A stretch of DNA of 33,491 nt, from assembly GCA_007116835.1 (NCBI GenBank), contig SKHS01000261.1, forward strand, positions 1 through 33,491. The letters are read 5' to 3'. Shown one piece after another: positions 7,623-22,447 of this stretch (the first letter of the stretch is position 1; every line of letters begins with the position of its first letter). This stretch comes from Halomonas sp. GTDB lineage: Bacteria > Pseudomonadota > Gammaproteobacteria > Pseudomonadales > Halomonadaceae. Both the position numbers and the translations under genes were made by a program. A model generated the notes under the pieces. It searched no databases and was not told the origin of the DNA. It saw only the letters and a list, made by a program, of their open reading frames with translations.

Positions 7623-7650
7623 CGTTAATGATAAGCATTAGCATTAATTT
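7623..7650 (-). promoter_or_regulatory. Candidate Fur box upstream of hemP-hmu operon
   Basis: TGATAAGCATTAGCA (7629-7643) versus TGATAATnATTATCA, 12/14 matches, 23 bp upstream of hemP ATG. Confidence 0.75.
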
Positions 7651-7804
7651 AGCAGGTTTTCCCATCACTCACAACCGCTACAAAGACGCTGGCTTTCCCT
7701 TGTCTAGCCTACGAAGCGCTCTCGCGGGGGGACGCGGGGTGGGCTACGGTTTTCGGCTTGTATGCGTGCATCACGTCACTCAAAGGATCCCTCGTCAGGA
7801 GGTG

Positions 7805-9163
7805 TTATCCCAGAATAATTAAGGTGGCTAATCCTAAAAATGACAAAAACCCGACCACATCGGTGACCGTGGTTAAAATCACCGCACCGGATAATGCGGG
7901 ATCAATTTTTAATTTTTTCAACACCAGTGGAATTAGCACGCCAGCGAGATTGGCAACACTCATATTGATAAAGATTGCCAGTGTAATCACGAGCGTAATC
8001 AATGGGTCGCCAAACCAAATATGTGAAATTAAGCCAACCACTAACGACCACACAAGACCATTGCTTGCCCCAACCCATAGCTCTTTATTATAGAGCCAGC
8101 GTTTGTTATTGCCGGCAAGTTGGCCAAGCGCTAAGCCACGTATCACAACGGTTAGGGTTTGACTGCCTGCAATCCCCCCCATGCTGGCCACCACCGGCAT
8201 TAAAATCGCTAAGGCAACTATTTGATCGAGCACTTCTTCAAACTGCCCGATGACGGATGCCGCTAAGAAGGCTGTTAGCAGATTAATGCCCAGCCAAATT
8301 CCTCGGCTTTTCGCACTCCGTATAATGGGCGTAAACACTTCTTCTTCATCACTGACGCCTGCCATATGCTTCAAGGTCATATCGGCATCGTCTTGGGTGA
8401 TCTCCAAAACGTCGGCGGCGTTTAGCTGCCCGACCAATAACCCATCACTGTCGCATACGGGTACAAAAGGTAGCTCCTTGGAGCGTAGTAGCACGGCAGC
8501 GTCACTAACTTTCATCTGATCATTTAACGTGAAAGGTTCAACCATATAGTCATCAACCACGCTTTCCTGTGGTTGTTTAATTAAATCTATTAGCGTCAAT
8601 GTGCCAAGTAAGCGCTTATCTTTATCGGTGACCATGATTTGCTGCGACTCATCATCGAGTAAATGATGAATTCGGATATAGCGTTGCACGGCTTCTAGTG
8701 ACACTCCTTGTTTTACATTAACGGTTTCGGGGTCCATGTAACGCCCGACAACGTCATCTTCATAGGCATAAAGGTTCTTAACTTGTGCACGAATGTCGTC
8801 ATTTAGGCTGGCATAAACACTGGTTTTAACAGCCTCGTCGGCAACATCTAATACCTCAGCAACTTCTTGAGCATCCAGGCCTTTAACAATCTGCTCTACG
8901 TCGCTGGCCGATAAATCTTCAATGTAATCAGCGCGAATATTTTCATCAACTTCTGCGAGTACTTCACCTATCACACTGTCGGGAACAAATGCCCAAAGTG
9001 AATCACGTGTTTTGGCGGGAAACGATTCGAGTATTCGAGCAATATCTAAGACAGCTAATTCAGTGAAAAAAGCATTGAGGTTCGCTGAGTCCGAGGCGTC
9101 TATTAGCTGCTGCACATACAACAACTGCTCTTCGGTATTGGCATGTTTTTCATCATCGCGCAT
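7805..9163 (-). CDS. mgtE: Magnesium transporter MgtE (start could be 9163, 9172 or 9196)
   Basis: N-domain, two CBS domains, C-terminal TM domain (MPVVASMGGIAGSQTLTVVIRG). Confidence 0.93.
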   Translation of the reverse strand: MRDDEKHANTEEQLLYVQQLIDASDSANLNAFFTELAVLDIARILESFPAKTRDSLWAFVPDSVIGEVLAEVDENIRADYIEDLSASDVEQIVKGLDAQEVAEVLDVADEAVKTSVYASLNDDIRAQVKNLYAYEDDVVGRYMDPETVNVKQGVSLEAVQRYIRIHHLLDDESQQIMVTDKDKRLLGTLTLIDLIKQPQESVVDDYMVEPFTLNDQMKVSDAAVLLRSKELPFVPVCDSDGLLVGQLNAADVLEITQDDADMTLKHMAGVSDEEEVFTPIIRSAKSRGIWLGINLLTAFLAASVIGQFEEVLDQIVALAILMPVVASMGGIAGSQTLTVVIRGLALGQLAGNNKRWLYNKELWVGASNGLVWSLVVGLISHIWFGDPLITLVITLAIFINMSVANLAGVLIPLVLKKLKIDPALSGAVILTTVTDVVGFLSFLGLATLIILG

Positions 9164-19762: not shown

Positions 19763-21352
19763 TTGATCGCAACCGCCAATATCACCATGCAGTTTGGGGC
19801 CAAGCCCCTGTTTGAAAATGTTTCCGTCAAATTTAATAACGGCAATCGCTACGGTTTGATTGGCGCCAATGGTTGCGGTAAATCCACCTTTATGAAAATT
19901 TTGGGTGGCGAGCTTGAGCCTTCGTCCGGTCAGGTCATGCTGGATAGCAGCACGCGGCTGGGTAAACTGCGCCAGGATCAGTTTGCCTATGAGAACGAGC
20001 GGGTCATCGACACCGTTATCATGGGGAATGCTGAGCTGTGGAAAGTGGCCGCCGAACGCGAACGGATCTACTCCCTGGCAGAAATGAGTGAAGCCGACGG
20101 AATGGCAGTGGCTGACCTGGAAGTGCGCTTTGCCGAGCTCGACGGCTATACCGCCGAGTCTCGCGCTGGGGAGCTACTGTTGGGGCTAGGTATTCCCATC
20201 GAACAGCATACCGGCCCGATGAGCGAAGTTGCTCCTGGCTGGAAACTGCGCGTGCTGCTCGCCCAGGCGCTGTTTTCCGACCCAGATGTACTACTGCTCG
20301 ACGAGCCGACTAACCACCTGGATATCAATACGATCCGCTGTCTGGAAGATATTCTTAAAGCGCGCAGCAGTACCATGGTGATTATTTCTCACGACCGCCA
20401 CTTCCTGAACAGCGTGTGCACGCACATGGCGGATCTGGATTACGGGGAAATTACCCTGTTCCCAGGCAACTACGATGACTACATGACCGCCGCCACCGCT
20501 GCCCGCGAGCGCCAGCATTCGGATAATGCCAAGAAAAAAGCCCAAATTGCCGAGCTTCAGCAGTTTGTTAGCCGCTTCTCGGCCAACGCCTCTAAAGCCA
20601 AACAAGCCACTTCACGGGCGCGCCAGATCGACAAAATCAAGCTGGAAGATATCAAGCCTTCAAGTCGGGTTAGCCCGTTTATCCGCTTCGATCAGAATAA
20701 AAAGATCCACCGCAATGCGGTGAACGTTGATGCGATCACCAAAGGCTACGACGATGAGAAGCCGCTCTTTGAGCGTTTCTCGATGACCGTCGAAGCGGGT
20801 GAGCGGATTGCCATCATCGGCCCCAACGGCATAGGTAAAACCACCCTGCTGAAAACCCTGGCGGGTGACTTACACCCCGATGCTGGCGAAGTGAAGTGGA
20901 CTGATGCCGCGGAAGTTGGCATGTTTGCCCAAGACCACACCGACGACTTTCCTGTCGATGCCACGCTCTTTGAGTGGATGAGCCAATGGACCAAAGGCGG
21001 CGAGCAGGTGGTGCGCGGCGCGCTGGGGCGGATGCTGTTTTCCAGCGACGACATTAATAAATCTGTCAGGGTGATTTCAGGTGGTGAGCAGGGTCGTATG
21101 CTGTTTGGCAAGCTAACGCTCACTAACCCCAACGTTTTGTTGATGGATGAGCCGACCAACCACCTGGATATGGAATCGATTGAGGCGCTGAACTTAGCGC
21201 TGGAGAACTATCCCGGTACGCTGATATTTGTCAGCCACGACCGCGAGTTTGTTTCGTCGCTCGCCACGCGCATTATTGATATGCAGCCCGAAGGGCTGGT
21301 TGACTTTAGCGGTGGCTATGACGACTACCTGCGTAGCCAAGGCGTTGTTTAA
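19763..21352 (+). CDS. ybiT: ABC-F family ATPase, YbiT type (TTG start)
   Basis: Two ABC domains; N-terminus (L)[41 protein letters not shown] resembles YbiT. Confidence 0.9.
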
Positions 21353-21364
21353 TCGCTAAACAGG

Positions 21365-21961
21365 TTAGCCAATAATCTGTGCGTAGGTCGTTTCCGTAGC
21401 GGGTTGCCGGTCGGCATCGAGAAGGTTGCCGTTAAAGGTGTCGTTAAGCTCTTTGGCGAGCGCTACATAAACGTGCATTTGCTGGTTACGGCGTTTATGT
21501 AGCGGCGGCTTAACCAGCAAGCTAATCCCACGAATGGGTTCGTGGGTCTCCCCTTGCAGCAGGTCAGGCATCTCGCCAGGTGGAAAGGCGTTGGCAATCG
21601 TGACGGGGTTAGAAGGCTGCTTGCCATTGATTAAGTAAACTTTCTTAATCGCATCATAGCTGGCTTCTTTTCCCCGTAGCCACTCGGCCAAACGTTCGTC
21701 CGTGGTGGCATCGGGGTGGGCAAAAATCACAAAAAGTGAGTGCTGCTTTACTTTCTCTTTACGCGCAGCAGGCGCGGGTGTTTCCGGTTCAGGAGGCTGT
21801 GGTGCTGCTTTGGGGGTAGGCCGAGGAGGAGTAGTCTTTGCTTTAGCGCGGCGTCTTCTAGGTACCACCACATACAAAAAAATGGCTGCTGCCAACAAGC
21901 CTAAGACTAATGAGGCAACAGCGAGTAGAAAAGGAAGTGAAGTGACATCCATGTGATACAC
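21365..21961 (-). CDS. Membrane-anchored protein with ZipA-like C-terminal domain (start may be 21952)
   Basis: N-terminal TM, basic stretch RRRRAKAK, Pro-rich linker, then a globular domain with VTIANAFPPGEMPD..RGISLLVKPPL..MHVYVALAKELNDTFNGNLLDADRQPAT that parallels the ZipA FtsZ-binding domain layout. Confidence 0.65.
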   Translation of the reverse strand: MYHMDVTSLPFLLAVASLVLGLLAAAIFLYVVVPRRRRAKAKTTPPRPTPKAAPQPPEPETPAPAARKEKVKQHSLFVIFAHPDATTDERLAEWLRGKEASYDAIKKVYLINGKQPSNPVTIANAFPPGEMPDLLQGETHEPIRGISLLVKPPLHKRRNQQMHVYVALAKELNDTFNGNLLDADRQPATETTYAQIIG

Positions 21962-21976
21962 CCTGTCGATGGGCGT

Positions 21977-22447
21977 TTAGGCCCTGTGATTTAACCGTAG
22001 AATAGACGTATTAAGCGTCAACGCAAGCGCCACCCAAAGCCAATAAGGCGCCATCAACCAAGCAGCCAATGCGTTCACATTAGCGAACAGCCCAATGGCT
22101 AGCGTAATTAACCCTAAAAGAAGAACGATATCCGCCAGCGCTGCGGCGACCTGCTTGCGCCCAAAGAACAGCCATGACCACGCTGCATTAGCCAGTAATT
22201 GAAGGCCATAAACCGCTAAGCTTGCCGTGCGTAGCGGGGAGTCATCGGCCATATAAATACGCCACGCGGCAATAGCCATTAATAAATAAAGAATACCCCA
22301 GGCGATAGGGAAGGCAATGTCAGGTGGTGTCCAGCTGGGTTTGCGCAGCTCGCGGTACCAGCCGTCGGGACGAAAACGCGCCCCCGTGGTGGCGGTAAGG
22401 CCAACAAGCAGGAGTGACACCAGCAGAGCGAATAGCGAACCGAGCAT
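21977..22447 (-). CDS. TspO/MBR family protein
   Basis: 156 aa, 5 TM, 'WYRELRKPSWTPPDIAFPIAWGILYLLMAIAAW' and 'ANAAWSWLFFGRKQ' signatures. Confidence 0.93.
   Translation of the reverse strand: MLGSLFALLVSLLLVGLTATTGARFRPDGWYRELRKPSWTPPDIAFPIAWGILYLLMAIAAWRIYMADDSPLRTASLAVYGLQLLANAAWSWLFFGRKQVAAALADIVLLLGLITLAIGLFANVNALAAWLMAPYWLWVALALTLNTSILRLNHRA

Follow-up and report, generated by a model that had tools for sequence, protein, structure and literature searches.

Our analysis of the window, by which we mean the whole 33,491-nucleotide stretch of contig SKHS01000261.1 that was analysed, indicates that it carries a gene for a short membrane protein of ZipA fold, ZIPL-a, which is a member of the ZipA_C superfamily by homology and no equivalog of ZipA, and which belongs to a family of short paralogs whose presence follows that of flagellin. 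The best-supported function, to which we give an even chance of being right, is that of a membrane adaptor, derived from ZipA, that works for the flagellar system. We use ZIPL-a for the clade of 25 short proteins to which the window protein belongs and ZIPL-b for the remaining short paralogs. Going by named relatives, the genus of the window is Vreelandella.

The reading frame at 21365-21961 on the minus strand is open and, from its GTG codon, encodes 198 residues. The true start is most likely the ATG at 21952, giving a protein of 195 residues; we prefer it because it matches the starts of the orthologs and because an AGGG lies 8 nt upstream (Table 1). The spacing of 15 bp from tspO that the initial annotation reported holds only with the GTG start, the gap from the likelier ATG being 24 bp. 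The gene is under strong purifying selection, with dN/dS of 0.07-0.11 in the domain and the highest values within the protein in the linker; these domain values, together with the conservation of the gene, rule out a pseudogene or a decaying copy. In the record of Halomonas sulfidaeris AP019514.1 (L023:5001-5592) frameshifts break up the ortholog and several of the genes around it; this has the look of an error in the sequencing of that record, not of decay. In the closest clade a sigma-28-like site lies ~42 nt upstream with scores of 9-11 of 12, where 9 is near background; this upstream site is not conserved outside that clade, and no sigma-28 promoter consistent across the relatives was found.

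Table 1. Coordinates of the ZIPL-a gene, its parts and its neighbours. Positions are those of the window unless a locus (L) in a relative is given.
Feature	Position	Strand	Basis
ZIPL-a CDS, short ZipA-fold protein	21365..21952	-	ORF, ortholog alignment start; alternative in-frame GTG at 21961
Shine-Dalgarno-like AGGG, 8 nt before ATG	21961..21964	-	Sequence read directly
N-terminal TM helix and basic RRRRAK stretch, residues 5-38	21839..21940	-	AlphaFold helix 5-38
Disordered Pro/Ala/Glu-rich short linker, residues 39-65	21758..21838	-	pLDDT<50 at 40-65
ZipA_C-fold domain, residues 66-195	21368..21757	-	Pfam, hhalign, AlphaFold, Foldseek
Basic beta5-alpha2 loop KPPLHKRRNQQM, residues 148-159	21476..21511	-	Ortholog alignment, charge count
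tspO, directly upstream neighbour	21977..22447	-	Pfam TspO_MBR 141 bits; synteny
ABC-F ATPase, convergent neighbour	19763..21352	+	Name read from sequence, not family search
117-137 aa helical protein	L055:7536-7889, L057:427-780, L065:4582-4974, L070:4109-4462 and 7648-8007; also L073-L076, L078		

How close is this protein to ZipA? The Pfam model ZipA_C (PF04354) matches residues 119-193 with 28.3 bits, against a gathering cut-off of 23, and is matched at E<=0.01 by 47 of 60 short-family relatives. Alignment of the short family with canonical ZipA domains by hhalign gave E=5.8e-6 over 110 columns; the E. coli ZipA row in that set is consistent with the part of the PDB sequence shown by the profile search. 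Searched against the PDB, the single ZIPL-a protein returned nothing useful with phmmer, and a profile found ZipA weakly (E=0.02). It is the structure search, run with a predicted model, that settled the likeness: all of ranks 1-10 from Foldseek were ZipA (E 2.9e-6 to 2.5e-5, probability 1.00, TM up to 0.70 on target, identity 17-20%), and the best match in the PDB other than ZipA had E=0.07. The ZipA equivalog model TIGR02205 (NCBIfam), on the other hand, gave 15 bits against a cut-off of 119.65.

The same genome holds, on another contig, a zipA of the canonical kind (128.5 bits, with a 706-aa open frame), directly upstream of ligA, and ZIPL-a, which lies between tspO and the ABC-F gene without ligA as a neighbour, is therefore a divergent paralog of it. 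In a domain tree a branch with support of 100/100 separates 60 short from 12 canonical proteins, and the window protein falls within its clade of 25 with support of 99/98. The initial annotation had proposed just such a second ZipA-type protein, paralogous to the zipA beside ligA, and the Pfam, hhalign, Foldseek and synteny results agree with it. It had also named two findings that would speak against the proposal, no structural similarity to ZipA and this being the only zipA of the genome; both were checked, and we found the similarity and the separate zipA.

The AlphaFold model of ZIPL-a, built with an alignment of 60 relatives, has a helix at residues 5-38, disorder at 40-65 (pLDDT<50) and a folded part from ~70 to 195 (domain pLDDT ~90), whose elements follow the order beta-alpha-beta-beta-beta-beta-alpha-beta-alpha. 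Sequence and model thus bear out the earlier reading of a ZipA-like topology, with a TM segment, a basic stretch, a Pro/Ala linker and a globular C-terminus, and the ZipA-domain segments quoted with it are all present in the frame. Because the basic residues come after the TM helix, the positive-inside rule would place the protein N-out/C-in, as in ZipA. ZIPL-a shares with ZipA (PF04354; E. coli 1F46/1F47) the N-terminal TM, a linker that is first charged and then Pro-rich, and the fold of the C-terminal domain, in which the PG turn and the GVS/GVT strand are conserved. It differs from ZipA in having a linker of ~27 residues, where the ZipA of the same genome has hundreds, in being an accessory gene found beside a canonical zipA and away from ligA, in changes at the FtsZ-tail contacts M226, M248 and K250, and in an added basic loop between beta5 and alpha2. 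The net charge of this loop is +4 to +5 in all 25 ZIPL-a members and ~+3.7 in the other short proteins, versus an average of ~-1 in canonical ZipA.

ZipA_C was present in 230 of 274 gammaproteobacterial genomes, with one match per genome in nearly all, and only three of those genomes besides the window's own had two. Within the Halomonadaceae all 250 genomes have at least one match, mostly two or three in Vreelandella and one in most other genera. A search with short-family profiles found members in 3 of the 24 Halomonadaceae genera, among them Vreelandella (75 of 82 genomes; 69 of the 73 good ones) and Halomonas (35 of 90, the sample being the genus of G063, which we took to be Halomonas). 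No short members were found outside the family among 195 genomes of the order; the short ZipA-like family is thus specific to Halomonadaceae in the genomes sampled. Some genomes carry four short ZipA-fold copies, as G212 does, with three of them within ~11 kb of one flagellar locus (L070, G212:C33) and the fourth, of the window type, elsewhere in the genome.

The flagellar association of the whole short family, which the initial annotation missed, at present gives the best clue to what the protein does. With flagellin as the only flagellar marker, and with a Flagellin_N model that also matches FlgL, we found flagellin in 68 of 73 good Vreelandella and 59 of 90 Halomonas genomes. All 35 Halomonas carriers of the short family have flagellin, and none of the 31 flagellin-free genomes carries the family (Fisher 2.1e-9). 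Flagellin is missing from five good Vreelandella genomes, none of which holds an intact copy: G146, G160, G164 and G243, the four family-free genomes, and G218, which has a broken remnant. On marker-gene trees, each from one gene and a quick search (part of ligA, and the ABC-F gene, which also served as a landmark for the site in relatives), ~8-9 independent contrasts agree with the link and none opposes it. A Pagel-type test of correlated evolution gave p=3e-5 for Halomonas and 3.1e-5 for Vreelandella, the latter becoming 4.4e-4 when the doubtful genomes G236 and G184 are coded as flagellin-free. For the ZIPL-a clade alone, only two independent losses coincide with loss of flagellin. The main exception to co-loss is formed by the same doubtful pair, the sister genomes G184 (L166) and G236 (L163), which keep an intact ZIPL-a; G236 has a very weak flagellin match and G184 a single match of FlgL length. 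Among incomplete genomes the exceptions run both ways, with a copy and no flagellin in G442 and flagellin and no copy in G441. Since 24 Halomonas genomes have flagellin and do without the short family, the family is accessory and not needed for flagella as such.

Several ZIPL-b copies lie directly beside fliC or fliD, and 38 of 42 are within ~25 kb of a flagellin gene, where the distances, taken from the flagellin matches listed, are upper bounds. Of the 21 ZIPL-a copies, none lies within 100 kb of flagellin among the matches listed. A conserved helical protein of 117-137 aa is often found beside fliC or fliD and the ZIPL-b paralogs (Table 1). The 117-aa neighbour yields a well-folded helical AlphaFold model (pLDDT 89), with no significant match in the PDB and no convincing match in Pfam; it is possibly a new flagellar chaperone-like protein.

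How could a ZipA fold serve the flagellar system? We propose that ZIPL-a would act as a single-pass inner-membrane adaptor from the ZipA line, anchored N-out/C-in, which uses a very short tether to hold the peptide-binding groove of the ZipA fold near the membrane, facing the cytoplasm. The groove and the added basic loop might then capture a peptide or surface of a partner in the flagellar system, or might tie the assembly of flagella to the division machinery, and in this way the protein could act on the position, number or assembly timing of flagella. The groove as binding site, the flagellar partner and the role in positioning, number or timing are what we infer from the fold and from the genomic association. 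A parallel in layout exists: FipA (DUF2802), the partner of FlhF in polar flagellates, shows that flagella can be organised by a small protein with one TM and a domain in the cytoplasm (PMC11620751). ZIPL-a, as predicted, would share with FipA a short periplasmic N-terminus, one TM, a cytoplasmic C-terminal domain and a flagella-linked presence, but it has a ZipA fold, and the window-type gene lies outside flagellar clusters. Pfam gave no DUF2802 match to ZIPL-a at E<=10, and we regard the likeness as an analogy of layout only, not as kinship.

In its more specific form, our proposal is that, after a duplication in Halomonadaceae, the ZipA fold was turned to a new use as a flagellar membrane adaptor that sets the position, number or timing of flagella, and that it may still read the FtsZ tail, linking flagellar assembly directly to division. 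We hold this fuller version tentatively, with clearly less than an even chance.

The main rival explanation is that ZIPL-a is an accessory FtsZ membrane tether or modulator working beside ZipA, for instance in a particular growth state. We consider it rather unlikely, though it draws on several observations. To our knowledge, FtsZ binding is the only described job of the ZipA C-terminal domain. Nine relatives have an intact FtsZ tail (DDYLDIPAFLRRQAD), and each carries ftsZ at a single place; FtsZ was not found in the window's own genome, whose assembly is 67% complete. Moreover, one short paralog lies near slmA (L057:1138-3153; SlmA-like_C 136 bits), whose product acts in nucleoid occlusion and binds FtsZ too.

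The groove itself bears on this rival from both sides. In E. coli ZipA the FtsZ tail contacts M226, I228, M248, V249, K250, F269 and R305 (PMC8669495), which map, in that order, to K103, V105, A122, F123, P124, L146 and R182 of ZIPL-a. The window protein has V for I228 and L for F269, as in canonical halomonad ZipA, and keeps R305, but M226 is replaced by K, M248 by A, V249 by F and K250 by P. All 11 canonical ZipA proteins of the family keep M226, and 10 of the 11 keep K250, whereas 22 of the 25 ZIPL-a members have K at the position of M226 and all 25 have P or L at that of K250; nearly all members of the clade have K, A, P/L and M/L in place of M226, M248, K250 and F254. Within ZIPL-a the groove positions L73, F77, A120, A122, S144 and L146 are nonetheless strongly conserved and R305 is often kept; this conservation suggests a ligand that is retained but altered. 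An FtsZ tether also sits poorly with the fact that absence of the gene tracks flagellin, and with the single ZipA_C gene, taken as canonical zipA, that genomes without the short gene keep. The divisome role suggested in the initial annotation is thus not supported so far, with key FtsZ-tail contacts changed across the 25 members of the window clade.

A second possibility is that the flagellar link is indirect, the short family and flagellin disappearing together wherever a lifestyle becomes reduced or sessile, while the protein does something else there. Correlation is not mechanism, some of the flagellin-free genomes are small, and the window-type gene is more than 100 kb from flagellin genes. 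However, the gene has been removed precisely while the adjacent tspO stays, flagellin-free genomes of 3.6-4.5 Mb (G160, G164 and G218) also do without it, and in several subclades the sister paralogs form part of fliC/fliD clusters; we therefore regard an indirect link as improbable.

Least probable of all, and by our estimate very improbable, is a TspO/NemA-linked envelope or stress adaptor working with the upstream gene: of 60 intact ABC-F/ZIPL loci, 43 have tspO immediately upstream, mostly at a distance of tens of bp, but it is absent there in the other 17, it remains intact next to ABC-F in G160 (where nemA is also kept) and G164 although ZIPL-a is gone, the sister paralogs examined occupy other surroundings, and ZIPL-a shares no domain with TspO and its linked genes. 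TspO is a frequent and not a constant partner, unneeded for retention of the ZIPL-a gene, and this synteny rules it out as an obligate one; the co-transcription with tspO read from the spacing is possible, without a constant link between the two genes. In G218, a genome without flagellin, only the last ~42 codons of the ZIPL-a gene are left, fused by a deletion to a truncated tspO (L144; G218:C26, ~82902-83033), so that the remnant is a 3' part only, with a stop.

Among the papers searched, nothing relevant turned up on ZipA paralogs, on ZipA in Halomonas or on ZipA with flagella. The co-retention with flagella suggests that a cell-division protein has been reused for flagella. If true, a paralog family whose retention goes with flagella and not with division would be the first case of the ZipA fold with another job, and it would provide a concrete starting point for studying how cells coordinate the assembly of flagella with the envelope or the cell cycle.
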